64,000 nt of DNA. Source: Xanthomonas sacchari (GTDB taxonomy: Bacteria > Pseudomonadota > Gammaproteobacteria > Xanthomonadales > Xanthomonadaceae). The notes under the pieces were generated by a model. It did no database searches. It was not told the DNA's origin and worked only from the letters and a program-made list of their open reading frames with translations. Of the stretch, positions 27,362 through 42,697 are shown piece after piece (the first letter of the stretch is position 1; each line of letters starts with the position of its first letter). The stretch spans positions 1,302,001 through 1,366,000 of the forward strand of contig NZ_CP132343.1 in NCBI RefSeq assembly GCF_040529065.1. The letters are read 5' to 3'. Both the position numbers and the translations under genes were made by a program.

Positions 27362-27426
27362 CCCACCCGCCCGCGGCCCACCTACCCGCCGCGTGCGGCC
27401 GCTCGCCGCAGCGCGCTGGCTATGGT
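27362..27426 (+). promoter_or_regulatory. Shared-architecture promoter upstream of TonB receptor 1
   Basis: Boxes CCCACCC (27362) and CCTACCC (27381) start 19 bp apart, with the -10 hexamer TATGGT (27421) exactly 40 bp after the second box start. There is no -35 consensus, which suggests activator dependence. The same spacing recurs at 30299-30363 and 39322-39386. The receptor ATG is at 27510, giving a leader of roughly 77 nt. Confidence 0.7.
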
Positions 27427-27509
27427 TCCTCCGCGCCGCGTCACGGCGCCGCCGGTAGGGGATCGGTGCGTTTCCACGCGACATCCACGTCATCCAGGGG
27501 GTCTTGGGC

Positions 27510-30206
27510 ATGAGCAAACGATTGAAGACGCAGCGTCTGGCGGAATCGGTGCGCAGGGGACTGGAGCGCGCGGGCCATCGCCATGGGCCGGCCACGCTGG
27601 CGCTGTTGCTGGCTGCCGCGCAGGCGCTGCCGGCGCTGGCCGAGGACGCCGACGGCGAGGCCAAGACGCTGGACGCGATCACGGTCATCTCGACCGGCAC
27701 GCGCAAGGCCAACATGGCGGTGACCGACAGCCCCGCGCCGATTCAACTGGTCAGCGCGGAGATGCTCAAGCAGTCGGCCGCGCCGGACCTGATCAACGCC
27801 ATCGCCAACCAGGTGCCGTCCTACAACGCCAACCAGACCGGCAACGATATGGCCAGCCAGACCCTCACCGCCAGTCTGCGCAACCTCTCGCCCAACCACA
27901 CGCTGGTGCTGGTCAACGGCAAGCGCCGCCACATCACCTCCAACGTCAACACCACCACCGGCGCGGCGTCGGCGGATCTGTCGTTCATCCCCGCCGCGGC
28001 GATCGACCACGTCGAAGTGCTCACCGACGGTGCCGCGGCGCTGTACGGCTCGGACGCGATTGCCGGCGTCATCAACATCATCCTGAAGAAGAACCACGAC
28101 GGCGGCGAGGTGGATGCCGGTTACGCCGGCTACAAGGACGGGGGCGGCGGCACCGATTCCTGGGGCGCCAACATCGGCTTCGGCAGCGACGCGGCGTACT
28201 TCAGCCTCAGCGCCGAGGTGGAGAACCGCAAGACCGTGTACCGGCTCGGCTCCTACAGCTACGCCGACTGCGTGGCCAACTACGCCGACTGCGCGGCGGT
28301 CAATCCGAGCATGGCCGACTTCCTCGCCGACGACGTGCGCGGCATGACCCTCAACCCGCGCTTTCCCAACGTCAACGCCTGGCTCAATCCGCCGGAAGTG
28401 CACCGCAAGGCGCTGTTCTTCAACTCCGGCGTGGTGCTCGGCGACGCGTTGGAGTTCTACGCGTTCGGCAGCTTCGGCAAGAAGACCGCGCAGTCGGAGG
28501 AGAACTACCGGCGTCCCAGCCAGGATGGCGGCTATGTCGATCCGACGACCGGCGCGGTCAGCCACAAGTATCCGCTGGGCTTCAATCCGTCCGAGGCGTC
28601 CGATGAGGTCGACTACGAACTCACCGCCGGCCTGAAAGGGGTACTCGCCGACTGGTCCTGGGATGTCTCCAGCAGCTACGGCAAGAACACGATGGACGTG
28701 TACACGCTGAACTCGATGAACTTCAGCCTGTGGCAGGAGGACGGCTATTCGCCCGAGGATTTCTACGACGGCAGCTTCTGGGCCAGCCAGTGGACCACCA
28801 ACCTCAATGCCACCCACGATTTCGACGTCGGCCTGTCGCAGCCGCTGACCTTCAATGCCGGCATCGAGTACCGCCGCGACCGCTACGGCATCGACGCGGG
28901 CGACCCCGCTTCGTACTACGGCGCCGGTGCGTCGTCCTTCCCCGGCTACAACCCGCTGTTCAACACCGGTGCCTACAGCCGCCATAGCTATGCCGCCTAC
29001 GCCGACGCGGTGTTCAACCCGACCGAGAAATGGCTGCTGGACGTGGCCGGGCGCTACGAGAACTACAGCGACTTCGGCAGCAAGGTGGTCGGCAAGCTGA
29101 CCACCCGCTTCGACCTCAGCGACACGTTCGCGGTGCGCGCCACCGCCAGCACCGGCTTCCGTGCGCCGACGCTGCAGGAAGGCTACTACTCGGCGGTGCA
29201 GGTCGGCCCGACCAGCGCCACGCCGACGCTGCAGCCCAACAGCGCCGCCGCCGCCGCGCTGGGCTTCGGCAGCCTGAAACCGGAGACCAGCACCAACTAC
29301 AGCCTGGGCTTCGTGTTCCGGCCGATGTCCAACCTCGACAGCACGCTGGATTTCTACCGCATCACCATCTCCGACCGCATCGGCGTCGGGACCTTCGAAT
29401 ACTCCCGCGCCGGCGAGCCGGGCGACACCAACGGCGACGGCGTCCCCGACGCGACCTACAATGCCGCGCTCGGCCAGGCCCTGGTCGATTTCGGCTACCT
29501 GGGCGGCATCGACCCGTCCGCGCCGGGCGGCTCGCTCGACGCCACCGCACGCCAGAACATTTCCGTGGCGATCTTCAACAACGCGCTCAAGACCCGCAGC
29601 AGCGGCGTGGACTGGGTGACCAACTACATCAGCGCGTTCGACTGGGGCTCGATCGACTGGATCCTGGCGGCCAACTACAACAAGACCGAGGTGCTCGACG
29701 CCAAGCCGGCGCCGCAGGTGCTCGGCGGCGCCACCATGTACAGCGCGGCGACCCTGATCAACCTGGAGAACAACGCGCCCAAGTACCGGGTCAACCTGGG
29801 CGCCACCCTCAACATCGGCAAGTTCAGCCTGCGCGTGACCGAGGCGATCTACGGGTCGCAATACCAGTTGGTCACGCCGTACGACGACTGGAACGGCGAG
29901 ATCTTCCCCGCCAGCGTACTGAGCAAGCTCGACGTGGTCGACGTCAACGGCGCGCCGTACTACAAGCAGGAGATCGGCACGCTGGCGCTGACCAACGTCG
30001 AACTGACCTACCGGCCCACCGAACGGCTCACGGTCAGCGTCGGCGGCGACAACGTGTTCAACACGTATCCGGACAAGATCCCGGCGGCGGCCTACGACTA
30101 CCTCGAGAAGAACTACCTGAGCTACTACAACTCGCCGTACCTGACCGGCAGCCCGATCGGCTACTTCGGCGCGCGCTACTACGCCAAGCTCACCTACCGC
30201 TTCTGA
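27510..30206 (+). CDS. TonB-dependent outer-membrane receptor (amine-oxidase locus, receptor 1)
   Basis: This 898-residue receptor has an extended N-terminus of about 30 basic residues before the signal-peptide core (PATLALLLAAAQALPALAED), then LDAITVISTGTRKANM as TonB-box/plug start. The plug motifs are LRNLSPNHTLVLVNGKRRH and IDHVEVLTDGAAALYGSDAI, and the barrel ends in AKLTYRF. I start at the ATG at 27510, which follows AGGGGG; an in-frame TTG at 27504 is unlikely. It lies directly upstream of the exported amine-oxidase operon and shares its promoter type, so it probably brings in the oxidase substrate or a peptide or conjugate of it. The ligand is unknown. Confidence 0.93.
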   Translation: MSKRLKTQRLAESVRRGLERAGHRHGPATLALLLAAAQALPALAEDADGEAKTLDAITVISTGTRKANMAVTDSPAPIQLVSAEMLKQSAAPDLINAIANQVPSYNANQTGNDMASQTLTASLRNLSPNHTLVLVNGKRRHITSNVNTTTGAASADLSFIPAAAIDHVEVLTDGAAALYGSDAIAGVINIILKKNHDGGEVDAGYAGYKDGGGGTDSWGANIGFGSDAAYFSLSAEVENRKTVYRLGSYSYADCVANYADCAAVNPSMADFLADDVRGMTLNPRFPNVNAWLNPPEVHRKALFFNSGVVLGDALEFYAFGSFGKKTAQSEENYRRPSQDGGYVDPTTGAVSHKYPLGFNPSEASDEVDYELTAGLKGVLADWSWDVSSSYGKNTMDVYTLNSMNFSLWQEDGYSPEDFYDGSFWASQWTTNLNATHDFDVGLSQPLTFNAGIEYRRDRYGIDAGDPASYYGAGASSFPGYNPLFNTGAYSRHSYAAYADAVFNPTEKWLLDVAGRYENYSDFGSKVVGKLTTRFDLSDTFAVRATASTGFRAPTLQEGYYSAVQVGPTSATPTLQPNSAAAAALGFGSLKPETSTNYSLGFVFRPMSNLDSTLDFYRITISDRIGVGTFEYSRAGEPGDTNGDGVPDATYNAALGQALVDFGYLGGIDPSAPGGSLDATARQNISVAIFNNALKTRSSGVDWVTNYISAFDWGSIDWILAANYNKTEVLDAKPAPQVLGGATMYSAATLINLENNAPKYRVNLGATLNIGKFSLRVTEAIYGSQYQLVTPYDDWNGEIFPASVLSKLDVVDVNGAPYYKQEIGTLALTNVELTYRPTERLTVSVGGDNVFNTYPDKIPAAAYDYLEKNYLSYYNSPYLTGSPIGYFGARYYAKLTYRF

Positions 30207-30218
30207 GCGCCGGCGCTG

Positions 30219-30257
30219 AAGCCCCTCTCCCCCCGGGAGAGGGGTTGGGGTGAGGGT
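30219..30257 (+). repeat. Half copy of the 42.7-kb repeat family
   Basis: CCCCTCTCCCCCCGGGAGAG continuing GGGTTGGGGTGAGGGT matches the right half of the 42.7-kb tandem unit. It starts 13 bp after the receptor stop and can form a CCTCTCCC/GGGAGAGG hairpin, so it may act as the receptor mRNA end. Confidence 0.8.
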
Positions 30258-30298
30258 AAGGCGGCCGCAATCCCCGCCAAGCACCCACACCCACCCCA

Positions 30299-30363
30299 CC
30301 TACCCACCCCATCGCGGCCTACCCGCCGCATCCGGCCTGCGCCGTCGCCGCGACGGCTATGGT
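30299..30363 (+). promoter_or_regulatory. Shared-architecture promoter of the exported amine-oxidase operon
   Basis: Boxes CCTACCC (30299) and CCTACCC (30318) start 19 bp apart, with TATGGT (30358) 40 bp after the second box start. Predicted transcription begins near 30370, just before the oxidase gene. Confidence 0.72.
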
Positions 30364-30417
30364 CGACCCGCCATCCGCGAGGCGATGTCCACGATGCACG
30401 CAGCCCCCAAGGGAGCC

Positions 30418-31992
30418 ATGACCCGCCGCCAGTTGCTCGCCAGGATCGGCCTGGCCGGCGGCGGCGCGATGATGTACCAGGCGATGCACAGCCTGGGACT
30501 GGCCGCCGAATCGCGCTTCACCGGCGTGCCGCGGCTGGACGGCGACGCCCGCGGCGCCTCGGTGCTGGTGCTCGGTGCCGGCCTGGCCGGCCTGACCGCG
30601 GCGTTCGAACTGCGCAAGGCCGGCTACCGCGTGCAGGTGCTCGAGTACAACGCACGCCCGGGCGGCCGCAACTGGACGCTGCGCGGCGGCGACCGCTACA
30701 CCGAACTGGGGGGCTTCACCCAGCAGTGCGGGTTCGACGAAGGCATGTACCTCAATCCCGGGCCGTGGCGCATCCCGCACCACCACAAGGCGGTGCTGTC
30801 CTACTGCAAGCAGTTCGGGGTGGCGCTGGAGCCGTTCGTGCAGGTCAACTTCAACGCGCTGCTGCACAGCCGCACCGGTTTCGGCGGCAGGCCGCAGCGC
30901 TTCCGCGACATCGACGCCGACTACAAGGGGCACGTGGCCGAACTGCTGGCCAAGAGCACCAGGCAGGGCGCGCTGGATGCGCAACTGCAGCGCGAGGACC
31001 AGGATATCCTGCTCGAGTCGCTGCGCAACTGGGGCGCGCTGGACAAGGACTTCGGCTACGTCGAGGGCCGCGAGAGCAGCGAGCGCCGCGGCTTCGCCAA
31101 GTATCCCGGCGGCGGCCTGTCCGGCAAGCCGCAGTTCTCCGCACCGTTCACCGCCCAGGACATCCTGCGCTCGCGGCTGTGGACCACGCTGGCGGCAGGC
31201 AACAACTACGAGATGCAGACCGCGATGTTCCAGCCGGTCGGCGGCATGGACCAGATCGGCAAGGCCTTCGCGCGCCAGTTGGGCGATGCGATCCGCTACA
31301 ACGCGCGGGTGACCCGCATCGACCAGGACGCGCACGGGGTCAGCGTCGCTTACCAGGAAGCGGACGGCAGCGAACAGCTGGCCAAGGCCGATTGGTGCGT
31401 GTGCACGATCCCGCTGTCGATCCTCAGCCGCATCCCGATCGCGGTGGGCGAGAAGATGGCCGCGGCGATCGGCCAGGTGCCGTACGCGGCCTCGGTCAAG
31501 GTCGGGCTGCAGTTCAAGCGCCGCTTCTGGGAAGAGGACGAGGCGATCTATGGCGGCATCAGCTACACCGACCTGCCGATCACCCTGATCAGCTATCCGA
31601 GCACCGGCTTCCAGAGCGCCGGCAAGGGCGTGTTGCTGGGCGCCTACGTGTGGGGGCTGGAGGCATTCGAGTTCACCTCGATGACGCCGCCGCAGCGCGT
31701 GGCCAAGGCGGTGGAGTACGGCACGCAGCTGCATCCGCAATACCCGCGCGAATTCGACAACGGCATCGCCGTGGGCTGGCACCGGGTACCGTTCACCCAC
31801 GGCTGCTTCGGCGTGTGGAGCGATGCCGCGCGCGCCGAGCACTACGAGAACCTGTGCCAGATCGACGGCCGCATCGCCCTCGCCGGCGAGCACGCCTCCT
31901 ACATCCCGGCCTGGCAGGAAGGCGCCATCACCTCGGCGCTGGACGCGATCGAGCGCCTGCATCGGCGCGTCGTCAACGGAGCCCGCGCATGA
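30418..31992 (+). CDS. Flavin monoamine / L-amino-acid oxidase, Tat-exported
   Basis: This 524-residue FAD enzyme of the amine-oxidase family oxidises an amine or amino acid to an imine. The N-terminus MTRRQLLARIGLAGGG is a Tat-type twin-arginine signal, so it works folded in the periplasm. The FAD-binding motif is VLGAGLAGLTAAFELRKAGY (about 51-70), followed by the GGR loop in NARPGGRNW. The C-terminal flavin motif is ALAGEHASYIPAWQEGAI. I choose the ATG at 30418 after AAGGGAG; ATGs at 30385 and 30394 are possible. The stop overlaps the cytochrome start (ATGA), so the pair is translationally coupled. This suggests a dehydrogenase that passes electrons to cytochrome c rather than only to oxygen. 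Substrate unknown. Confidence 0.88.
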   Translation: MTRRQLLARIGLAGGGAMMYQAMHSLGLAAESRFTGVPRLDGDARGASVLVLGAGLAGLTAAFELRKAGYRVQVLEYNARPGGRNWTLRGGDRYTELGGFTQQCGFDEGMYLNPGPWRIPHHHKAVLSYCKQFGVALEPFVQVNFNALLHSRTGFGGRPQRFRDIDADYKGHVAELLAKSTRQGALDAQLQREDQDILLESLRNWGALDKDFGYVEGRESSERRGFAKYPGGGLSGKPQFSAPFTAQDILRSRLWTTLAAGNNYEMQTAMFQPVGGMDQIGKAFARQLGDAIRYNARVTRIDQDAHGVSVAYQEADGSEQLAKADWCVCTIPLSILSRIPIAVGEKMAAAIGQVPYAASVKVGLQFKRRFWEEDEAIYGGISYTDLPITLISYPSTGFQSAGKGVLLGAYVWGLEAFEFTSMTPPQRVAKAVEYGTQLHPQYPREFDNGIAVGWHRVPFTHGCFGVWSDAARAEHYENLCQIDGRIALAGEHASYIPAWQEGAITSALDAIERLHRRVVNGARA

Positions 31993-32417
31993 AACCGGAT
32001 CGTTCCTGGATGCTCGCCGCGGCGATCGCCGTCGCGCTCGTCGCGCTGATGCTGCCGCCGGGGATCGGCCCGGCCGTGGCGCAGAGTTCCGATGCCACCC
32101 CGCTGTACCCGCAGGCCGAGTTCACCACCACCTCGGGCGCCACCGTGTACGCGGCGATCTGCCAGAGCTGCCACATGCCGGGCGGGCAGGGCGCGCGCGG
32201 TGGCGGCGAGTATCCGGCGCTGGCCGGCAATCCCAAGGTGGCCGCCGCGCCCTACGTGGCGATGATGGTGCTCGACGGCCGCGGCGGCATGCCCGGCTTC
32301 GCCGACACGCTCAACGACCGGCAGGTCGCCGAGGTAGTGCACTACGTGCGCAGCCAGTTCGGCAACGACTATCCCGGCCGCCTCAGCGCCGAGGACGTGC
32401 ACGCGCTGCGGCACTGA
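31989..32417 (+). CDS. Periplasmic c-type cytochrome (class I, single heme)
   Basis: This 142-residue protein has a Sec signal (WMLAAAIAVALVALMLPPGI...AVAQ), a single heme-attachment site CQSCH (58-62) and the likely axial Met in RGGMPGFAD (101). A short helix-rich C-terminus (DRQVAEVVHYVRSQFG) completes a mono-heme cytochrome fold like those partnered with alcohol or sugar dehydrogenases. It overlaps the oxidase gene by 4 bp, which strongly suggests it is the electron acceptor for that flavoenzyme. Confidence 0.92.
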   Translation: MKPDRSWMLAAAIAVALVALMLPPGIGPAVAQSSDATPLYPQAEFTTTSGATVYAAICQSCHMPGGQGARGGGEYPALAGNPKVAAAPYVAMMVLDGRGGMPGFADTLNDRQVAEVVHYVRSQFGNDYPGRLSAEDVHALRH

Positions 32418-32465
32418 GCCGCCTCGCTTCCCTTTCCGTTCCGTTCCGATCGCAAGGAGTTCCGC

Positions 32466-32975
32466 ATGCGCCATCGTGTCGTTTCCCGTTCGCTCCGTGC
32501 CGGCCTGTGCGCCGCGCTGTGGCTGCCCACGCTGGCCGGCGCCGCCGAGGTCGTGCGGCACAAGATTCCCAACAGCGATTTCCCGATCTCCGCGGCGGTG
32601 GAGATCCCGGCCGGCAAGACCACGGTCTATCTCAGCGGCGCGGTGCCGCGGCCGATCGCTCCGGACGCGCCCAAGGACACGCCCGCCACCTATGGCGACA
32701 CCAAGGCGCAGACGGTCAGCGTGCTGTCGCAGATCAAGGCGCAGCTGGAAGGCATGGGCCTGGGCATGCGCGACGTGGTCAAGATGCAGGCGTTCCTGGT
32801 CGGCGACCCGGCATTGGGCGGGAAGATGGATTTCGCCGGTTTCATGGAGGGCTACCGGCAGTTCTTCGGCACCCCCGAGCAGCCCAACCTGCCGGCGCGC
32901 TCGGCGTTCCAGATCGCCGCGCTGGGCAATCCGCTGTATCGCATCGAGATCGAAGTGGTCGCGGTGCGTCCGTAG
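32466..32975 (+). CDS. Exported RidA-family imine/enamine deaminase
   Basis: This 169-residue RidA/YjgF-type protein carries a Sec signal peptide (RAGLCAALWLPTLAGAAEV), unlike the usual cytoplasmic RidA. The catalytic Arg is conserved (PARSAFQIAAL, R145), as is the acidic pair near the end (YRIEIEVVAVRP). The family hydrolyses reactive imines and enamines made by PLP or flavin enzymes. Placed directly after an amine oxidase and before an aminotransferase, it most likely hydrolyses the imine product in the periplasm to carbonyl plus ammonia. There is a 48-bp gap after the cytochrome gene with AAGGAGT before the ATG. Confidence 0.88.
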   Translation: MRHRVVSRSLRAGLCAALWLPTLAGAAEVVRHKIPNSDFPISAAVEIPAGKTTVYLSGAVPRPIAPDAPKDTPATYGDTKAQTVSVLSQIKAQLEGMGLGMRDVVKMQAFLVGDPALGGKMDFAGFMEGYRQFFGTPEQPNLPARSAFQIAALGNPLYRIEIEVVAVRP

Positions 32976-33007
32976 TGCCTTCGCCACCTTCCTGCTAGGA
33001 GTTCCTC

Positions 33008-34195
33008 ATGCAGCAGTCGTCGCCCTCGCGCCGCAGGTTCCTCCAGCAATCGGCGCTGGTCGCCGCGGCCGGTCTCGGCACGCCGTGGCTGGCGCAGGCC
33101 GCGCCCGCCGCGGCGCTGGCGGCCGGCACCGAGCTGGCGCCGGTACTGATCAACGCCAACGAGTACCCCGGCGGTCCCTCGCCGGCAGCGCAGCGCGCGA
33201 TCGCCGCGATCGCGTCCAGCGGCGGCCGCTACCTGGGCGAACTGCAACTGGAGTTGCTGCAGACCCTCGCCACCCAGCTCGGGGTGGGGATGGACCACCT
33301 GATGGCCTACGCCGGTTCCACCGAGCCGCTGGACTACGCCATGCTGGCGTTCACCTCGCCCGGCGCGTCGCTGGTCACCGCCGATCCCACCTACGAATCC
33401 GGCTGGCGCGCCGCCGCACGCAACGGCGCCAAGGTGATCAAGGTGCCGCTGCGCAAGGACGATGCGCACGACGTGCAGGCGATGTGCGCCGCCGACGCCC
33501 ATGCCGGGGTGATCTACCTCTGCAATCCCAACAATCCCACCGGCTCGGTCACCCCACGCAAGGATCTGGACTACGCGCTGGCGCACAAGCCCAAGGGCAG
33601 CGTGCTGGTGGTCGACGAGGCGTACCTGCATTTCTCCGACAGCGCCAGCAGCATGGTCGACCGCGTCGCCGCCGGCGACGATGTGATCGTGCTGCGGACC
33701 TTCTCCAAGCTCTATGGCATGGCCGGCATCCGCCTGGGCTATGCGGTGGCGCGCCCGGAACTGCTGGCCAGGCTCAAGTTCTACAGCGTCAACAGCCTGC
33801 CGGTGACCGCGGTCGCCGCCGGCCTGGCCAGCCTGCGCGATCCGGCGCTGGTGCCGCAGCGGCGCGCGCTCAACAGCGCCATCCGCGGCGACGTGGTGCG
33901 CTGGCTCGACGCGCAGGGCTACGCCTGCACCGCCTCGGAAAGCAACTGCTTCATGGTCGACGTGAAGCGCCCGGCGAAAGAGTTCATGGACGCGATGGCG
34001 ACCTATGGCGTCTTCGTCGGACGCAGTTGGACGCTGTGGCCGGAGCGCTCGCGCATCACCGTCGGCACCGTCGCGGAGATGGCGCGGTTCAAGCAGGCGT
34101 TCGCGCAGGTGGCCGCGGGCAAGCGCGGACCGCTGCCGGTGCCGCCGCCGCTGGCGGCGCACGATCCGTTGCATGGATTCTTCCGCAACGCCTAG
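33008..34195 (+). CDS. Tat-exported PLP aminotransferase (class I/II, HisC-like)
   Basis: This 395-residue protein has a textbook twin-arginine signal (SPSRRRFLQQSALVAAAG). The enzyme part is a fold-type I aminotransferase related to histidinol-phosphate aminotransferase: LINANEYPGGPS, CNPNNPTGSVTP, VLVVDEAYLHF and the PLP-lysine motif RTFSKLYGMAGIRLGY are all intact. Tat export lets it carry PLP out already folded. It starts 32 bp after ridA and is clearly in the operon. It could regenerate or remove the oxo-acid product, or act on an amino donor; the substrate is unknown. PLP aminotransferases in the periplasm are uncommon. Confidence 0.87.
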   Translation: MQQSSPSRRRFLQQSALVAAAGLGTPWLAQAAPAAALAAGTELAPVLINANEYPGGPSPAAQRAIAAIASSGGRYLGELQLELLQTLATQLGVGMDHLMAYAGSTEPLDYAMLAFTSPGASLVTADPTYESGWRAAARNGAKVIKVPLRKDDAHDVQAMCAADAHAGVIYLCNPNNPTGSVTPRKDLDYALAHKPKGSVLVVDEAYLHFSDSASSMVDRVAAGDDVIVLRTFSKLYGMAGIRLGYAVARPELLARLKFYSVNSLPVTAVAAGLASLRDPALVPQRRALNSAIRGDVVRWLDAQGYACTASESNCFMVDVKRPAKEFMDAMATYGVFVGRSWTLWPERSRITVGTVAEMARFKQAFAQVAAGKRGPLPVPPPLAAHDPLHGFFRNA

Positions 34196-34346
34196 CGTTG
34201 CTTGCGCCGGATGTTGCAGTGCACGAGGGCTTGTCGTTGACAACCATTTGCGCAAAGGCAGACAGTCGTGGCGGCGCCGCCGCGCGCGCAGCGCATGCTG
34301 GCGACGTGCGTGCGCTGGTGCCGTTCCCATTGCCAAGGAGTCCGTC

Positions 34347-34802
34347 TTGAAAGCGAAACCGTTGTCTCTCTTGCTGGTCCTCGCCACGCTCGCGTTCGCG
34401 CCGGCGGCCTGGGCCAAGACCTGCGCGGTGACCATCACCGGCACCGACCAGATGTCCTTCGACCAGCAGCAGATCAAGGTGGCCGCCGACTGCACCGAAG
34501 TGGCGGTGACGCTCAAGCACAGCGGCAAGCTCGCCGCCGCGGTGATGGGCCACAACTGGGTGCTGACCAAGACCGCGGACTTCCAGGCGGTGGCCAATGC
34601 CGGCACCAGTTCCAGCCTGGCCGACAATTACCTGCCGAAGAACGATCCGCGGATCATCGCCCACACCAAGGTGATCGGCGCGGGGCAGTCGGATACGGTG
34701 AAGTTCTCCACCGCCAAGCTCAGCAAGGGCGGCGATTACACCTTCTTCTGTTCGTTCCCGGGGCACTGGGCGGTGATGAAGGGCAAGTTCGTGTTCGGCT
34801 GA
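34347..34802 (+). CDS. azu: Azurin (blue copper electron carrier)
   Basis: This 151-residue periplasmic type-1 copper protein has a Sec signal (PLSLLLVLATLAFAPAAWAK). Copper ligands are all present: His69 in GHNWV, Cys135, His140 and Met144 in FFCSFPGHWAVM. The mature protein begins KTCAVTITGTDQMSF with the conserved disulfide partner near AADCTEV. The start is a TTG at 34347, with a strong AAGGAG 6 bp upstream; no ATG fits. It follows the aminotransferase by 151 bp on the same strand and could carry electrons from the cytochrome or oxidase. A TTGACA (34237-34242) in the gap may give it its own promoter. Confidence 0.95.
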   Translation: MKAKPLSLLLVLATLAFAPAAWAKTCAVTITGTDQMSFDQQQIKVAADCTEVAVTLKHSGKLAAAVMGHNWVLTKTADFQAVANAGTSSSLADNYLPKNDPRIIAHTKVIGAGQSDTVKFSTAKLSKGGDYTFFCSFPGHWAVMKGKFVFG

Positions 34803-34863
34803 GCGGCGCCGCGCGTCGGTCTGCGCCCAGCGATCCCGCTGCGGCGTCGTGCCGGCATGCGGG

Positions 34864-34887
34864 TTCCGCAGGCGGCGGCCTGCGGAA
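34864..34887. terminator. Hairpin between convergent azurin and LuxR genes
   Basis: A perfect 10-bp stem TTCCGCAGGC / GCCTGCGGAA with loop GGCG, about 60 bp after azurin. There is no U-tract; it is probably a shared mRNA end. Confidence 0.45.
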
Positions 34888-34938
34888 GCGCCGACGGCAT
34901 CCACGAAGACGCCGACGGTGCGGATCGCACCGCGGCAG

Positions 34939-37710
34939 TCACTCCGATACGGCATCCGGCGTCATGCGCTGCAGCAGGCCGCGTTGCAGCGCGCTGGCCA
35001 GCGCGGCTTCGCGGGTGCCGGCGTCCAGTTTGCGGTACAGGTTCTTCAGGTGGAACTTGACTGTGTTCTCCGATAGCGCCAGGCGCCGCGCGATCTGCTT
35101 GTTCGCGGCGCCCTGCGCGAGCAGCGCCAGCACCTCCAGTTCGCGCTCGCTGAACAGTTCGGCGCCGTTGTCCTGGTCGTGCCGCAGTTTGTCGAGCAAG
35201 GCCTGGATGGTCATCGCCAGCGTGGTGTTGGGCGCTGCCTGCGGGTCCTGCTGGCGCGCCATGCGCAGCAGCGCCTTGCCCGGCACGCCCAGCTCCAGCA
35301 GGCACTGCCAGGCCTGGGTGCTGGCCACGTGCTGCAGCGCGTGGCGCAGGTAGGGCAGGGCGGCGTCGGACTCGCCGCGGTCGTGCAGCACCAGTGCGAT
35401 GCGTGCGCGGGCGCGGGCCAGGTGCGTCTGATTGTCGGCGGCCACGCAGCGCGCTTCGACGCCCTGCAGCACCGCCAGCGCGGCGCGGGTGCGGCCGCCC
35501 AGGCGATGCCAGCGGGCCAGGGCGAATCCCAGCGCGGTCAGGAAGCGCCAATCCTGCGGCTGAGCCAGCGCGTGCGTGAAGCGCGCCTCGCCGCTGGCGC
35601 GCGCGATCAGCAGGTCGAGCGCCGGCGACGGCGGCTGGTCGAGCAGCACGTGCAGCCGCCAGGCCAGCGCCAGGTCGGCGAGCCGGCCCAGGTGCCGGGC
35701 GTGCGCGATCCGGTCGACGTGGTCGAGCAGGTCCAGTGCGGCGCGGCCGCTGCGGTCGTGCTGCCGCGCCAGCACCAGCGCGGTCTCGTAGCCGGCGGCG
35801 TACACGTCCAGCCAGCCGTCGTGCTGCTCGAGGAACTCCAGCGCCGGCTGCAGGCAGTCGGCAGCCGCATCGTAGCGGCCGTGTTCGCATTGCAACTGCG
35901 CCAGCAGGCACTGGCCGACCGCCTGCAGGGTCGGATCGAACTGCTGCTGGCGCTGGGCGATGGCCAGCGCCTGGCGGCAGGTGGCCTCGGCTCGGTCCAG
36001 TTGGCCGCGGTAGAAGTGGCTTTGCGCCAGGTGGGTCAGCGCGTAGCTGACGCCGACCTCGCTGCCGCTGGCGTGCATCGCCGTGCCGGCCAACTGCGCA
36101 TAGCGTTCGGCGCCGGCGAAATCGGCGCGGCCCAGCGCGGTGGTGGCGCAGATGCACCACAGGGTGCCGCGGCCCAGGCTGTCGTCCTCGTCCAGCGCGG
36201 CGGCCTGTGCGGCGATCTGCGCCAATCCGCGCCGGTTGGCGCAGACCTGGTCGAGCAGGTCGCGCAGCAACGCCACCACCACCGTGTAGTCGCGCTCGAA
36301 CGGCGCGCGCGCCTGCTCGGGGAAATCGCGGAACCGTTCCAGCAGGGTCTGCGCATGCGCGAACTCGCCCAGCTTCATGTGCAGGTAGGCCTGGGTCAGG
36401 GCCAGCGCCGGTCGCTCACCGATGCACTGGCGCGGGAAGCGGCGCAGCAGCGCGCGCACTGGTGCGGTGCCGTGGCGCAGCAGCAACTGCCAGGTGCCGG
36501 CGCGGGCGATGCAGTCGGCGGCGCTGTCGATCGCGCCGCCGCGCACGGCGTGGCGCACCGCCTCGGGCAACTGCCCGTGCGCGTCGAACCACTGCGCGGC
36601 GCGCCGGTGCAGCTGCGGCGCCAGCCCGGGCGTCTCGCGCTCCAGCTGCTGGGACAGGTAGTCGGCGAACAGCGGATGGAAGCGGAACCATTCGTGCTCG
36701 CCGTCCAGCGCCACCAGTAGGCCCTGGAAGTGCGCCAGCCGTTCCAGCAGGCGGCCGCTGTCGTCGCGCTCGCGCACCGCGTCGGCGAGCGCGGCATTGA
36801 ACCGTTCCAGCGGCGAGAGCTGCAGCAACAGCGCGCGCAATGCCGGATCCAGGTCGTTGAGCACCTGCTCGGCCAGGTACGCCGCCAGCTCGGCGGTGCG
36901 TCCGGAGAAACGGCCCAGGTCGTCGCGGCGGCGCTCGTCGCCGCCCAGCCATAGCCCGGCCAGCTGCAGCGCAACCGCCCAGCCCTCGGTCTGGCGGCGC
37001 AACTGGCAGGCCATCGTCATCGGCACCTGCGGCCCCAGCAGCGCCGCCGTCTCCGCCTCGTCCAGGGCCAGCTCGCGCGCGCCGATGCGTTCCAACTGCC
37101 CTTGCAGCGCCCAGCGCGCCAGCGGCAGCGCCGGCGCGCGCCGCGTCGCCAGCAGCAGGTGCAACTGGCCGCCGGCATGTTCGACCAGTCGCGTCACCAC
37201 CTCGTCGAGCGCGCCGGCCTGGCTGCGGTCGTAGTCGTCGAGGATGACCCGCAGGCGCCGCGGCGCGGCGCGGATCGCACGGATCAGGCCCGGCACGGTG
37301 GCGGCCACGTCCAGGTCCTGGCCCTGCTGCTGCAGCGCGGCCTGCAGCGGCGCGCCGAGTTCGATCCCGGCCTCGCGCGCGGCCAACGCCAGGTAGGCGA
37401 GGAAGCGCCCCGGGTCGGCATCGTCCTCGTCCAGCGACAGCCACGCCACCGCGGCATCGCCGCGCTCGCGCAGGCGTTGGTGCCATTGCCCGAGCAGGGT
37501 GGTCTTGCCGAATCCGGGCGGCGCCAGCAACACGGTCAGCGGCAGTTCGGCGGCGCGGTCCAGGTGCTGCAGCAAGGCCTCGCGCGGCACCGTGGCCACG
37601 CGTGCGCGCGGTGGCGCGAGCTTGTCGGCCAGCACCCAGTCGGGCACGGCAGCGCCGTCGTGCGAGGACGCGGGAGGGCGCGGGTTCAACAGCGTCACGG
37701 GCTTGAGCAT
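34939..37710 (-). CDS. MalT-like LuxR-family ATP-dependent transcriptional activator
   Basis: This 923-residue regulator has an N-terminal STAND ATPase with Walker A APPGFGKTT (63-71) and VILDDYD as Walker B. A long TPR-like helical sensor region follows, and at the end a LuxR helix-turn-helix (LFSERELEVLALLAQGAANK, ENTVKFHLKNLYRKLDAGTR). MalT-type activators bind an inducer and ATP, oligomerise and occupy paired direct-repeat boxes upstream of weak promoters. That is the architecture seen at the three promoters in this region, so I infer it is their activator. The ATG at 37710 gives MLKPVTLLNPR. It is convergent with the oxidase operon and closely followed upstream by hemL on the same strand. 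Confidence 0.9.
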   Translation of the reverse strand: MLKPVTLLNPRPPASSHDGAAVPDWVLADKLAPPRARVATVPREALLQHLDRAAELPLTVLLAPPGFGKTTLLGQWHQRLRERGDAAVAWLSLDEDDADPGRFLAYLALAAREAGIELGAPLQAALQQQGQDLDVAATVPGLIRAIRAAPRRLRVILDDYDRSQAGALDEVVTRLVEHAGGQLHLLLATRRAPALPLARWALQGQLERIGARELALDEAETAALLGPQVPMTMACQLRRQTEGWAVALQLAGLWLGGDERRRDDLGRFSGRTAELAAYLAEQVLNDLDPALRALLLQLSPLERFNAALADAVRERDDSGRLLERLAHFQGLLVALDGEHEWFRFHPLFADYLSQQLERETPGLAPQLHRRAAQWFDAHGQLPEAVRHAVRGGAIDSAADCIARAGTWQLLLRHGTAPVRALLRRFPRQCIGERPALALTQAYLHMKLGEFAHAQTLLERFRDFPEQARAPFERDYTVVVALLRDLLDQVCANRRGLAQIAAQAAALDEDDSLGRGTLWCICATTALGRADFAGAERYAQLAGTAMHASGSEVGVSYALTHLAQSHFYRGQLDRAEATCRQALAIAQRQQQFDPTLQAVGQCLLAQLQCEHGRYDAAADCLQPALEFLEQHDGWLDVYAAGYETALVLARQHDRSGRAALDLLDHVDRIAHARHLGRLADLALAWRLHVLLDQPPSPALDLLIARASGEARFTHALAQPQDWRFLTALGFALARWHRLGGRTRAALAVLQGVEARCVAADNQTHLARARARIALVLHDRGESDAALPYLRHALQHVASTQAWQCLLELGVPGKALLRMARQQDPQAAPNTTLAMTIQALLDKLRHDQDNGAELFSERELEVLALLAQGAANKQIARRLALSENTVKFHLKNLYRKLDAGTREAALASALQRGLLQRMTPDAVSE

Positions 37711-37898
37711 GTCGCCAGTGGTGTCGTCTGCAGCGGTCGCCCTTGCGCCCTCCGGCGGTTCGGTCGACGGGACGGAACCGCACGCGCGCCACCGTGCCGC
37801 GCGGAGCGCGGAACGGTCTTCGCCGCGTAGGTTCCACGGGTCCCCACCCTGGCGCCGTCCGCTGGCGTTGTCTGGTGAACTTATGCCAGCGACGCCAC

Positions 37899-37927
37899 AA
37901 AAGCAAAGCCGCGCACCGCGGCGCGGC
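37899..37927 (-). terminator. Rho-independent terminator of hemL
   Basis: On the minus strand the 7-bp stem GCCGCGC / GCGCGGC (loop CGCGGT) is followed by TTTGCTTTT, 7 bp beyond the hemL stop codon. Confidence 0.7.
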
Positions 37928-37933
37928 GTGCGT

Positions 37934-39226
37934 TCAGCCGGCGGCGACCACCGCGAACGCCTCCCGCGCCGCGGCCAGGGTGGCCTCCAGCACGGCATCG
38001 TCGTGGGCGCTGGACACGAAACCGGCCTCGTACGCCGAGGGCGCCAGGAACACGCCGCGCTCCAGCATCGCGTGGAAGAAGCGGTTGAACGCGGCGGTGT
38101 CGCAGGCGGTGGCCTGCGCATAGGTCTCCACCTTCTCGGTGGTGAAGAACAGCCCGAACATCGCCCCGACCTGGTTGGTGGTGACCGCCACGCCGGCCGC
38201 CGCCGCAGCGGCTTCCAGGCCGGCGCACAGCTGCGCGGTGGCCGCGTCCAGGCGCTGGTGGAAGCCCGGTGCCTGGATCAGCTCCAGCATCGCCAGCCCC
38301 GCGGCCATCGCCACCGGATTGCCGCTGAGCGTGCCGGCCTGGTAGATCGGCCCGGACGGCGCCACCTGCCGCATCAGCTCGGCGCGCCCGCCATAGGCGC
38401 CCACCGGCATGCCGCCGCCGATGATCTTGCCGAAGGTGGTCAGGTCGGGCGTCACCCCGTAGTGCGCCTGCGCGCCGCCCAGGGCGACGCGGAAGCCGGT
38501 CATCACCTCGTCGAAGATCAGCAGCGCACCGTGCTGCGTGCACAGGTCGCGCAGGTGCTGCAGATAGCCCGGGCGCGGCGGAATGCAGTTGGCGTTGCCG
38601 ACCACCGGCTCGATGATGACCGCGGCGATCTCGTGGCCGATCTCCTCGAACAGCGCAGTGGCGCCCTCGGCATCGTTGTAGGCCAGGGTGGCGGTGAGTT
38701 CGCTCAGGCCTGCCGGTACGCCCGGCGAGGTCGGCACGCCCAGGGTCAGCATGCCGCTCCCGGCCTTGACCAGGAACGAATCGCCGTGGCCGTGGTAGCA
38801 GCCCTCGAACTTGACGATGCGGTTGCGCCCGGTGGCGCCGCGCGCCAGCCGCACCGCCGACAGCGTGGCCTCGGTGCCGGAGTTGACCATGCGCACCATC
38901 TCGCAGGACGGCACCAGCCGGGTGATGGTCTGCGCCATCGTGACCTCGGCCGGGCAGGGCGCGCCGAAGGACAGCCCATCGCCGATCGCGCGCTGCACCG
39001 CCTCGCGCACCGCCGGGTGGTTGTGCCCGGCGATCATCGGCCCCCACGAGCCGACGTAGTCGATGTAGCGGTTGCCGTCGACGTCGTACAGGTACGGGCC
39101 ATCGGCGCGCTGCACGAAGAACGGCTCGCCGCCGACCGACTTGAAGGCGCGCACCGGCGAATTGACGCCACCGGGAATCAGCGATTGCGCTTGGGCGAAC
39201 AGGGCGTGCGAGCGGGAATGGGTCAT
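37934..39226 (-). CDS. hemL: Glutamate-1-semialdehyde 2,1-aminomutase
   Basis: This PLP enzyme of heme synthesis converts glutamate-1-semialdehyde to 5-aminolevulinate. It has 430 residues with the class III signature ([18 protein letters not shown]) and PLP-lysine motif [18 protein letters not shown], plus [16 protein letters not shown]. The ATG at 39226 is preceded by AAGGAT. It lies between the LuxR regulator and receptor 2 but belongs to core metabolism; I see no functional tie to the amine-oxidase locus apart from heme supply for the cytochrome, which would be speculative. Confidence 0.96.
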
Positions 39227-39321
39227 GAGCGGAAATCCTTGGCGATGCTGGCCGGGCCGACCGGCCGGGCGCGGAGCGAGGCCGTCTATTGTCGCGGCTG
39301 CCGCCGGCCTGCGCCATGTCG

Positions 39322-39386
39322 CCTACCCGGCCAGGCGCCACCTACCCGTCGCGGCCGGCGCCGCGCTGCGATCCGCTGCCTAGGAT
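39322..39386 (+). promoter_or_regulatory. Shared-architecture promoter upstream of TonB receptor 2
   Basis: Boxes CCTACCC (39322) and CCTACCC (39341) start 19 bp apart, and TAGGAT (39381) begins 40 bp after the second box start. The layout is identical to the promoters at 27362 and 30299. The leader to the ATG at 39536 would be about 145 nt. Confidence 0.7.
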
Positions 39387-39535: not shown

Positions 39536-42500
39536 ATGCATCGTACGATCCGCAGGAGCGCCTTGGCGCTCGCGCTGGCGCTTGCCGGCGGCCATGTCCA
39601 AGCGCAGTCCACCACCGGCAGCATCGTCGGCAGCGTGCCGCCGGGGCCGGGCGAGAGCAGCGTGTTGATCACCAACACCAGCGGCTTCAGCCGCGAGGTG
39701 AAGGTGGACGAACGCGGCCGCTACGCGCAGGGCAACCTGCCGCTGGGCACCTACACGGTCTCGCTCAAGCGCGACGGCAAGGTGGTGGAGACGCGCGAGA
39801 ACATCAGCCTGGTGGTCGGCGCCGGCACCGAGGTCGGCTTCGGCGGCCCGGCGCAGACGCTGGACGCGGTCAACGTGGTGGCCGGCAACGTGGCCCGGAT
39901 CGACGTGGCCAGCGTCGACAGCCGCACCGTGATCACCGCCGAGCAGCTGGCGGTGCTGCCGCTGGGCCGCAGCGCCGAGGCCATCGCCTTGCTGGCGCCG
40001 GGCGTGGTCAACAACAGCGGCGGCTACGACAACGGCCCCCTCGGCGGTTCGCTGGCCAGCTTCGGCGGCTCGGCGGCCAGCGAGAACGCCTATTACCTCA
40101 ACGGCTTCAACACCACCGACCCGGCCAGCAGCCTCGGCGGGCTGACCCTGCCGTACGGCGCGATCGACCAGCAGGAAATCTTCACCGGCGGCTATGGCGC
40201 GCAGTACGGCCGCTCCAACGGCGGCGTGATCAGCCAGGTCGGCAAGCGCGGCAGCAACGACTGGCACTTCGGCGCGGCGGTGATCTGGCAGCCGGACAGC
40301 CTCAGCGCCAGGCAGCGCGACCTGTACTTCCGCAAGGACAGCGTCTACTGGGATCCGCGCAACGCCAAGTACACCGCCGGCAACTACCAGCCGCTGAGCG
40401 AGACCAGCGCCGACCAGACCACCTACAGCGCCTATCTCGGCGGCCCGCTGGTCCGCGATCGCCTGTTCTTCTTCCTGGCCCTGGAGCAGGTCGATTCCAG
40501 CGGCACCCGCGTCGCCGACGCGCGGGTCACCTCCGGCGGCATCTCCGGTTCGCCGTGGACCCGCTACGACTACAAGCAGACCCGTGCCTACGCCAAGATC
40601 GACTGGCAGATCAGCGACAACCACCTGCTGGAATTCACCGGCGCGGAGGACAAGGCGCGCACCAACGGCAGCATCTACCGCTACGACTACGTCGATCGCG
40701 AGGTGGGCAGCTACAAGGGCCGCGAAGCCAAGAACACTTTCGGCCCGACCCTGTTGCTGGGCAAGTACACCGGCTACTTCGGCGACAACGTCACCCTGAC
40801 CGCGCTGTACGGCAAGGAGCGCCTGCCCAACAAGCTCACCGCCATCGGCTACGACGCCGGCAACGGCCCGTTCCTCAACAGCGTCTCCAACCAGAATCCG
40901 GCCTACACCGGCGGCACTCCGATCGGCAACGCGCAGACGGTCAGCTCGATCACCGATCCGGGCCGCGAATACAAGAAGGACAACCTGCGCCTGAACATCA
41001 ACTGGCGCCTCGGCGAACACAGCGTCGACGTCGGCATCGACAACCAGAAGAGCGAGGCGATCAACATCGGCTCGTACAGTTCCGGCCCCGGCTATGCCTG
41101 GACCTACGGCTACACCCCGGATCCGTTCGGGCGCAACAGCGGCGGCCTGGTCAGCGGCTCGGTCGCCGAGGACGGCAGCATCGGCGTACCCAGCCCCGGC
41201 CTGGCCGATCCCACCTACGGCAGCACCGGCTACTACGTCACCAAGGACATCGCCACCAACCTGTATTCCTACGACGCCAAGCAGACCGCCTACTACATCG
41301 AAGACCACTGGCAGGCGACCGACACGCTCTTGCTCTCGCTGGGCGTGCGCAACGACAGCTTCACCAACTACACCCCATTCGGCCAGGCCTACATCGCGCT
41401 GAAGAACCAGTGGGCGCCGCGGCTGGGCTTCAGCTGGGACGTCAACGGCGATTCCAGCCTCAAGGTCTACGGCAACCTCGGCCGCTACTACCTCGGCCTG
41501 CCGCTGTCGCCGGCCGGCCTGTTCACCCCGGCGGTGTCCACCAGCACCTACTACACCTACAGCGGTATCAATGCCGACGGCACGCCGATCCTGGCCCGGC
41601 AACTGGCCCCGCCGGTCTCGGCCAACTCGCGTTTTGGCCGGCTCGCCGACGTGCGCACGGCGGTCGTCGAGGACATCAAGGGCGAGAACCAGGACGAACT
41701 CATCCTCGGCTTCAGCAAGCTGCTGCCCCACGACTGGGTGCTCGGCGTGCGCGGTGTGCATCGCCGGCTCAACGACGGCATCGACGACACCAACCTCGAC
41801 AACTCCAATGCCGGCCTGCTGGCCGCGGCCGCGGCGGCGGGCGTGGACATCGACTGGACCAAGAACGCCAGCGCGGCGCTGGTCAACCCGGGCAAGACCA
41901 ACACCTACCGGGTGATCGGCACGGACGGCCAGATCCACGCCCTGACCGTGACCCGCGAGCAGGGCGGCTATCCCGAGTTCAAGCGCCGCTATTCGGCGCT
42001 GGAGTTCAACCTGGAACGTCCGTTCGACGGCCGCTGGTATACCAAGATGAGCTACGTGTGGTCGCACAGCTATGGCACCACCGAGGGCCAGCTGCGCTCG
42101 GACCTGTGGCGGACCGGCGGCGCGCTGGGCAGCTACCAGGGCCAGGCGGCGACCTCGACCACGCAGAGCTGGGACCATGCGGCGCTGATGGAGCACTTCA
42201 ACGGCAACCAGTCCAACGACCGCCGCCACCAGTTGAAGGCCTATGGGTTCTACCAGCTGACCGAGGAGTGGGGCACCTCGGCCAACCTGAGCCTGATTTC
42301 CGGCGCGCCGCGCCCCTGCCTGGGCTATTACTACGGCGACAACTACGACGCCGGCGACCGCGATCCGGCCGGCTACGCCAATCCCAGCGTCACCGGCGGC
42401 CCCTACCACTTCTGCTACAACCCCAGCACCGGCACCGGCGAGCCGTCGCCGCCGGGCTCGCACGGCACCCTGGGCTGGGTGGCGCAACTCGACCTGGGCG

Positions 42501-42697
42501 TGAGCTACAAACCGAAGTTCGCCGCCGGCAGGCTGGCGCTGAGCCTGGACGTGTTCAACGTCACCAACCGGCAGACGGCGGTCAACGTCTATCCGTTCTC
42601 CGAGTTGAACCCAGGCGAAGTCAACCCGCTATGGAACCAGGCGGTGGCGTACCAGGCGCCGCGCTCGGCACGGGTGACGCTGAGCTACGACTTCTGA
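39536..42697 (+). CDS. Oar-type TonB-dependent receptor with carboxypeptidase-regulatory-like domain (receptor 2)
   Basis: This 1053-residue outer-membrane receptor has a Sec signal (SALALALALAGGHVQAQ), then a beta-sandwich carboxypeptidase-regulatory-like domain (TTGSIVGSVPPGPGESSVL to GTYTVSLKRDGK). The plug follows (LPLGRSAEAIALLAPGVVNN, FGGSAASENAYYLNGFNTTD), then a large barrel ending VTLSYDF. This is the Oar architecture, often linked to large or proteinaceous ligands. The ATG at 39536 follows GGGAGAG. It shares the two-box promoter with receptor 1 and the oxidase operon, so it is probably the second uptake gene of that regulon although hemL and the regulator lie between. Confidence 0.93.
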   Translation: MHRTIRRSALALALALAGGHVQAQSTTGSIVGSVPPGPGESSVLITNTSGFSREVKVDERGRYAQGNLPLGTYTVSLKRDGKVVETRENISLVVGAGTEVGFGGPAQTLDAVNVVAGNVARIDVASVDSRTVITAEQLAVLPLGRSAEAIALLAPGVVNNSGGYDNGPLGGSLASFGGSAASENAYYLNGFNTTDPASSLGGLTLPYGAIDQQEIFTGGYGAQYGRSNGGVISQVGKRGSNDWHFGAAVIWQPDSLSARQRDLYFRKDSVYWDPRNAKYTAGNYQPLSETSADQTTYSAYLGGPLVRDRLFFFLALEQVDSSGTRVADARVTSGGISGSPWTRYDYKQTRAYAKIDWQISDNHLLEFTGAEDKARTNGSIYRYDYVDREVGSYKGREAKNTFGPTLLLGKYTGYFGDNVTLTALYGKERLPNKLTAIGYDAGNGPFLNSVSNQNPAYTGGTPIGNAQTVSSITDPGREYKKDNLRLNINWRLGEHSVDVGIDNQKSEAINIGSYSSGPGYAWTYGYTPDPFGRNSGGLVSGSVAEDGSIGVPSPGLADPTYGSTGYYVTKDIATNLYSYDAKQTAYYIEDHWQATDTLLLSLGVRNDSFTNYTPFGQAYIALKNQWAPRLGFSWDVNGDSSLKVYGNLGRYYLGLPLSPAGLFTPAVSTSTYYTYSGINADGTPILARQLAPPVSANSRFGRLADVRTAVVEDIKGENQDELILGFSKLLPHDWVLGVRGVHRRLNDGIDDTNLDNSNAGLLAAAAAAGVDIDWTKNASAALVNPGKTNTYRVIGTDGQIHALTVTREQGGYPEFKRRYSALEFNLERPFDGRWYTKMSYVWSHSYGTTEGQLRSDLWRTGGALGSYQGQAATSTTQSWDHAALMEHFNGNQSNDRRHQLKAYGFYQLTEEWGTSANLSLISGAPRPCLGYYYGDNYDAGDRDPAGYANPSVTGGPYHFCYNPSTGTGEPSPPGSHGTLGWVAQLDLGVSYKPKFAAGRLALSLDVFNVTNRQTAVNVYPFSELNPGEVNPLWNQAVAYQAPRSARVTLSYDF

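Follow-up and report, generated by a model that had tools for sequence, protein, structure and literature searches.

Three promoters within a 64,000-nucleotide stretch of the Xanthomonas sacchari genome (assembly GCF_040529065.1, contig NZ_CP132343.1, positions 1,302,001 to 1,366,000; hereafter the window) carry the same pair of CCTACCC boxes at the same distance from a -10 hexamer, which raises the question of whether they answer to one regulator, and to which. An earlier note on this DNA had proposed a single regulon under a MalT-like activator encoded among the three promoters. After rereading the sequence and surveying 297 genomes of the family, we consider it very likely that this gene (34939-37710, reverse strand) encodes a STAND activator that controls two TonB-dependent receptor genes, receptor 1 and receptor 2, and an oxidase operon via paired CCTACCCGYCG boxes.

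The three sites all lie on the forward strand. Before receptor 1 (pair at 27362-27387, retained in relatives), CCCACCC at 27362-27368 is followed after 12 bases (N12) by CCTACCC at 27381-27387 and, 33 bases later (N33), by the -10 hexamer TATGGT at 27421-27426. The oxidase operon promoter has CCTACCC twice, separated by N12 (30299-30324), with TATGGT at 30358-30363, and the receptor 2 promoter has the same two boxes and N12 (39322-39347), with TAGGAT at 39381-39386. The earlier note's nine start positions (27362/27381/27421, 30299/30318/30358 and 39322/39341/39381) proved exact, as did its claims that the spacing CC[CT]ACCC-N12-CCTACCC-N33 is identical at all three promoters and that the pairs precede these three units. 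It had also reported no -35 consensus, and indeed, with spacings of 15-19 allowed, the hexamer closest to TTGACA matches it at only 2/6 positions in each promoter. If the -10 spans -12 to -7, the box centers fall near -68 (box 1) and -49 (box 2). The proximal site is thus not at -35, since 33 bp separate box 2 from the -10, and we take this gap to rule out CCTACCC as a -35 element in its own right.

We scanned the window, the rest of the genome, and the related genomes for the spaced pattern, as the earlier note had suggested. The window holds three exact pairs, compared with none across 500 dinucleotide shuffles, and five of its seven CCTACCC copies fall in the three promoter sites. At up to two mismatches there were six matches (the three promoter sites, two that overlap the oxidase site, and one other) against 0.70 expected, and none of 100 shuffles reached six. 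In the whole genome (4,957,212 bases), the three window sites were the only matches at up to one mismatch, all of them exact, on one strand, and within 12 kb; a larger regulon in this genome was not found by the exact or one-mismatch pair scan. The reversed pattern gave 3 + 3 matches at up to one mismatch in the same genome, with none exact. The bare one-mismatch count is therefore not above its control, and the weight rests on exactness and clustering. Across all 297 genomes, the reversed pattern occurred exactly only 20 times by hand count. A C-rich CACCC run occupies 30280-30298, immediately 5' of the oxidase operon boxes, and a further direct box, CCCACCC, stands at the equivalent position in a related genome (G134, L045:5118).

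We scanned 84 distinct sites, comprising the window and the loci read from L033 on without L040 and L041, among which sites from close species are not independent. In 68 of them the motif TAnnnT, which played no part in finding the sites, is placed at N33; three have it at N32, one at N34, and none at the other eight offsets scanned. The best -35 match was 3/6 or worse in 78 of the 84. In site sets assembled by hand, the -10 carried 1.23 bits per base for receptor 2 (n = 28), 1.59 for the oxidase (n = 15), and 1.77 for receptor 1 or its replacement (n = 25), whereas the 60 bases upstream gave 0.43-0.47, the 33-base gap 0.87-1.20, and the stretch downstream 0.44-1.06. Values for the boxes themselves are no evidence, because the pattern had picked them out. 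Box 2 extends to the consensus CCTACCCGYCG. The arrangement that emerges, direct-repeat sites upstream of a promoter that has no good -35, is the architecture expected of a MalT-like system. In one genus (g17), 14 of 14 exact-pair receptor 2 sites (L062-L071 and L073-L076), and also a relic site in G265 (L072), have a third box in inverted orientation, exactly 19 bp beyond box 2 and covering the -35 position; these 15 third boxes read GGGTAGG (11), GGGTGGG (3), and GGGCAGG (1). No such box was found in the window's own promoters, where the best candidates have 4 to 6 mismatches.

We then asked what kind of protein the proposed regulator is and whether it is matched to the boxes. The earlier note had called it MalT-like, and all three parts of such a protein were found: a STAND NTPase related to that of MalT (8bob, E = 2e-41 over residues 30-444; NF003420, E = 7e-89), a TPR region (PF00515 and PF07719 above their cut-offs; the MalT TPR family PF17874 at 36 bits, below its cut-off of 45), and a C-terminal LuxR/GerE helix-turn-helix (HTH; PF00196, E = 4e-18). 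The protein has 923 residues if it starts at MLKPV, and homology among its relatives begins at the M of that sequence. Its recognition helix, LSENTVKFHLKN, was common to the HTHs of all 12 box-associated regulators that we compared, including a distant one in G018, whereas the helices of other LAL (MalT-type) regulators, sampled in 13 of the 19 genomes of the family that have such matches, differed from it in 13 of 13 cases; one of these 13 genomes, G284, holds a single exact pair. The G018 regulator is only 41% identical yet keeps the helix, and at its receptor-oxidase unit CCTACCC occurs twice, 17 bp apart and 32 bp before TAAGGT.

The boxes and the regulator also occur in the same genomes. 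Counting as an orthologue any match at E <= 1e-70 to a 257-residue piece of the regulator, we found an exact pair in 33 of the 297 genomes, an orthologue in 29, and both in 28, so that the pair is present in 28/29 regulator-positive but 5/268 regulator-negative genomes. In G175, the sole orthologue-bearing genome with no exact pair, receptor 2 is preceded by a pair with one mismatch. Two of the five pairs that lack an orthologue belong to G192, which has regulator fragments, and to G265, where a relic without a -10 lies beside hemL; G190, G251, and G284 have one exact pair each, and because a -10 is missing there we regard these three as chance-like. Within the genus of the window, boxes were found in 11 of 18 genomes, the same 11 that have the orthologue, and conservation extends across genera.

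Regulator-positive genomes contain nine exact sites outside the main locus. We examined eight of these, the analysis also taking in the distal pair of G017 (L011), and each of the eight precedes genes in the same orientation: four TonB receptors, two PtaA-like aminotransferases, one PvdQ/penicillin-amidase-type acylase (L061, G053 C7), and one permease followed by EutB (L057, G043 C22). One of the aminotransferases (L060, G053 C5) is followed by a nucleoside hydrolase and is 64% identical to a G001 paralogue compared with 52% to the window's enzyme, and is therefore not necessarily the gene that the main locus of G053 lacks.

Several observations weigh against the reading of one regulon run by this gene. 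Because the genomes are related and the regulator is linked to its targets, linkage could account for much of the correlation, and the value of a Fisher test on the co-occurrence counts is inflated and should not be read as a true probability. In a scan of the window no CCTACCC was found ahead of the regulator gene, and against the NCBI MalT equivalog model the protein scores 299 bits, short of the cut-off of 537. Pairs also persist where the regulator is broken: G261 (L050), one of the 11 genomes of the window's genus, keeps three exact pairs with a regulator whose aligned frame is interrupted by an in-frame stop at residue 80; G192 (L066) keeps a pair beside its regulator fragments; and G092 (L090), where the regulator has an internal deletion, has a CCTACCC/CCCACCC pair with TATGGT before its receptor-oxidase unit. 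Among the five loci where the regulator is interrupted, decaying, or lost (these three, G265 at L072, and G250 at L086, which has remnants of the regulator and no boxes), pairs or relics are kept in four. In addition, TAnnnT is absent from the scanned range (N29-N39) in 12 of the 84 sites, namely, the chance-like L079-L081, the G265 relic, five of the eight distal sites (L053, L054, L055, L057, and L077), a site in overlapping register in L045, and the main-locus sites of L037 (receptor 2) and L038 (oxidase; Pseudoxanthomonas composti). TTGACC stands at the distance of a -35 in L054 and L055, and some of the distal sites that lack TAnnnT may be chance matches or of another build. Finally, G042, which has no regulator, holds one CCTACCC pair spaced by 17 bp before an open reading frame (L092).

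The inflation of co-inheritance by linkage, the missing box at the regulator gene, and the pairs retained beside interrupted regulators in G261, G192, and G092 all count in favor of a rival explanation, in which the boxes are bound by another transcription factor encoded elsewhere and the MalT-like gene is only a linked passenger. To this explanation we assign a low probability, given what is seen where linkage breaks. G207 and G231 keep the regulator and a box but have no oxidase match at E <= 1e-40, and in Stenotrophomonas tumulicola (L036) the pair sits in the gap between the regulator and receptor 2, which adjoin and read away from each other. Conversely, G016, G091, and G174 have no regulator match at E <= 1e-10, and for their closest receptor 2 relatives, 65-67% identical over nearly the whole protein, no pair was found at up to three mismatches and spacings of 17-20 in the 600 bp that precede the first aligned residue. 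In G174 (L108:5352) this relative is still beside hemL and has TTGACA-N18-TAAGGT in place of the boxes; no hemL was seen near those of G016 and G091 in a 12.5-kb stretch. For the oxidases of G041 and G042, which also lack the regulator, no pair closer than four mismatches was found within 420 bp, although a promoter further up is possible; this upstream reading set aside G288, whose oxidase lies at a contig edge. At the second oxidase of G001 there is a pair with one mismatch and no -10 at N33. Moreover, recognition helix and box sequence travel together down to 41% identity, and no other regulator was recognized in the gene block bounded by the two receptors. Both the common helix and the missing boxes at receptor 2 and oxidase relatives that survive without the regulator, along with the co-inheritance and the boxes at co-functional distal genes, thus support the earlier note's proposal of one regulon.

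Even if the MalT-like protein binds the pairs, it might use them to repress rather than to activate. Direction is not readable from sequence alone, and an excerpt of PMC9628970 describes SCO6993 of Streptomyces as a negative regulator of the LAL type. Repression is nevertheless a distinctly poor prospect, since the pair stands upstream of the -10 across a fixed 33-bp gap at promoters that mostly offer no better than half a -35, and the regulator-less relative in G174 has TTGACA instead. That the pairs merely reflect chance or composition is next to impossible and was rejected: the regions are GC-rich, CACCC runs precede the oxidase operon, and the reversed pattern is equally frequent at up to one mismatch, but the shuffles, the clustering of all three exact sites within 12 kb of a 4.96-Mb genome, the rarity of exact reversed matches, and the conservation across genera all contradict it.

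What might a regulon of this kind do? Receptor 1 (27510-30206, forward strand, 898 residues, frame checked) is a TonB-dependent receptor with PF07715 and PF00593. The oxidase operon, also on the forward strand, begins with an FAD amine oxidase of 524 residues (30418-31992) that resembles L-amino acid oxidases over its full length, residues 42-520 matching 2jae (E = 1e-97), which we take to be the enzyme of Rhodococcus opacus. It continues with a small c-type cytochrome of 142 residues with CQSCH (31989-32417, PF13442), a RidA-family protein with a leader-like N-terminus (32466-32975, PF01042), a pyridoxal phosphate-dependent aminotransferase like PRK09105/PtaA (33008-34195; NF006580 at 549 bits, above its cut-off, and below that of PtaA), and an azurin domain at 34422-34802 (TIGR02695 at 184 bits, above cut-off), coordinates that delimit the domain and not a settled gene start. 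By eye, both the oxidase and the aminotransferase have a leader of the twin-arginine translocation (TAT) type. Beyond the regulator lies hemL (glutamate-1-semialdehyde aminomutase, 37934-39226, reverse strand, TIGR00713 above cut-off), a neighbor that we leave out of the regulon count, and reading away from it is receptor 2 (39536-42697, forward strand, 1,053 residues), a TonB-dependent receptor with an OMP_b-brl_4 barrel and a plug. The earlier note needed correction here in three respects: the oxidase operon includes the aminotransferase gene at 33008-34195, hemL is the class III aminotransferase that lies between the regulator and receptor 2, and the frame of receptor 2 is 39536-42697.

The combination of oxidase, RidA, aminotransferase, and electron carriers suggests periplasmic oxidation of an amino-acid-like compound, and the acylase and ethanolamine genes behind boxes in relatives could mean that the substrate range widens to N-acyl or amine compounds. 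Given the TAT-type leader and the electron carriers in the operon, the flavoprotein may work as a dehydrogenase and not as an oxidase that uses oxygen. We infer the following course of events. The TPR sensor of the regulator would meet an inducer, and the protein would multimerize, a step modeled on MalT. Its LuxR-type HTHs would then sit side by side on the two CCTACCCGYCG boxes, a direct repeat 19 bp apart at about -49 and -68, and RNA polymerase would be recruited to the three promoters, each with a -10 and lacking a -35. Receptor 1, receptor 2, and the periplasmic operon (flavoprotein, cytochrome c, RidA, aminotransferase, and azurin) would be switched on together; an amino-acid- or amine-like nutrient would be taken up through the TonB receptors and oxidized in the periplasm, and the electrons would pass to cytochrome c and azurin.

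The literature searched, which had most subscription journals outside its scope, gave no published description of this regulon or its box among the matches listed, of which the nearest, judged from an excerpt, was a LuxR solo and a TonB receptor in Lysobacter (PMC4886534). We offer tentatively, as somewhat short of an even chance, the broader suggestion that this is an undescribed Xanthomonadaceae STAND/LAL regulon that couples TonB uptake to a periplasmic amino-acid-oxidizing electron chain and whose promoters evolve by gain, loss, re-spacing (17 versus 19 bp), and inversion of boxes. If so, a natural series of activator arrays, and the replacement of a -35 by boxes, could be read from genomes, and the reach into acylase and ethanolamine genes would mark a system for scavenging N-acylated or amine-bearing compounds. 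For large ATP-dependent regulators of this class, the pattern also supplies a DNA code precise enough to test, and it would assign three transcription units, including two TonB receptors, to one circuit. The natural losses of the regulator, with a box relic in G265, interrupted regulators in G092, G192, and G261, and a consensus -35 in G174, amount to a ready evolutionary experiment.

The class of the regulator (STAND/LAL, MalT-type) is already known, and the regulon would be a new one of that class. With MalT of Escherichia coli the regulator shares the STAND NTPase, the TPR region, and the LuxR HTH, as well as sites in direct repeat. The MalT box differs in sequence from CCTACCC, and the proximal MalT site abuts or overlaps the -35 rather than lying near -49. 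The targets differ as well, since the boxes precede TonB receptor genes and an amino acid oxidase operon rather than maltose or maltodextrin genes, and the protein falls below the MalT cut-off. The analogy drawn in the earlier note thus stands for the architecture of paired direct boxes without a -35, but neither for the regulated pathway nor for the sequence and position of the box. Excerpts describe MalT as multimerizing upon inducer binding, binding its sites cooperatively, and recruiting RNA polymerase (PMC10427625, PMC4381067), with sites in direct repeat (a paper cited in PMC8265627), and by analogy such a mode of working most likely applies here. The likeness to NarL concerns DNA recognition: the two HTHs align over 51 residues and have TVK-x-H-x-K in common, the lysines of which touch DNA in NarL. 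The box core TACCC fits the NarL/NarP heptamer, TACYYMT in an excerpt of PMC4886647, yet NarL is a two-component response regulator and the protein here a STAND NTPase. A SARP-LAL regulator in Streptomyces has heptameric direct repeats as sites (PMC5930380, in excerpt) and shares the LAL part, but it also has a SARP domain, and it is probably that domain that binds DNA there, to judge from excerpts of PMC5930380 and PMC3367932. Finally, the operon flavoprotein is like the L-amino acid oxidase 2jae over residues 42-520, and what sets it apart is its TAT-type leader and its place in an operon with a cytochrome c, a RidA protein, an aminotransferase, and an azurin.

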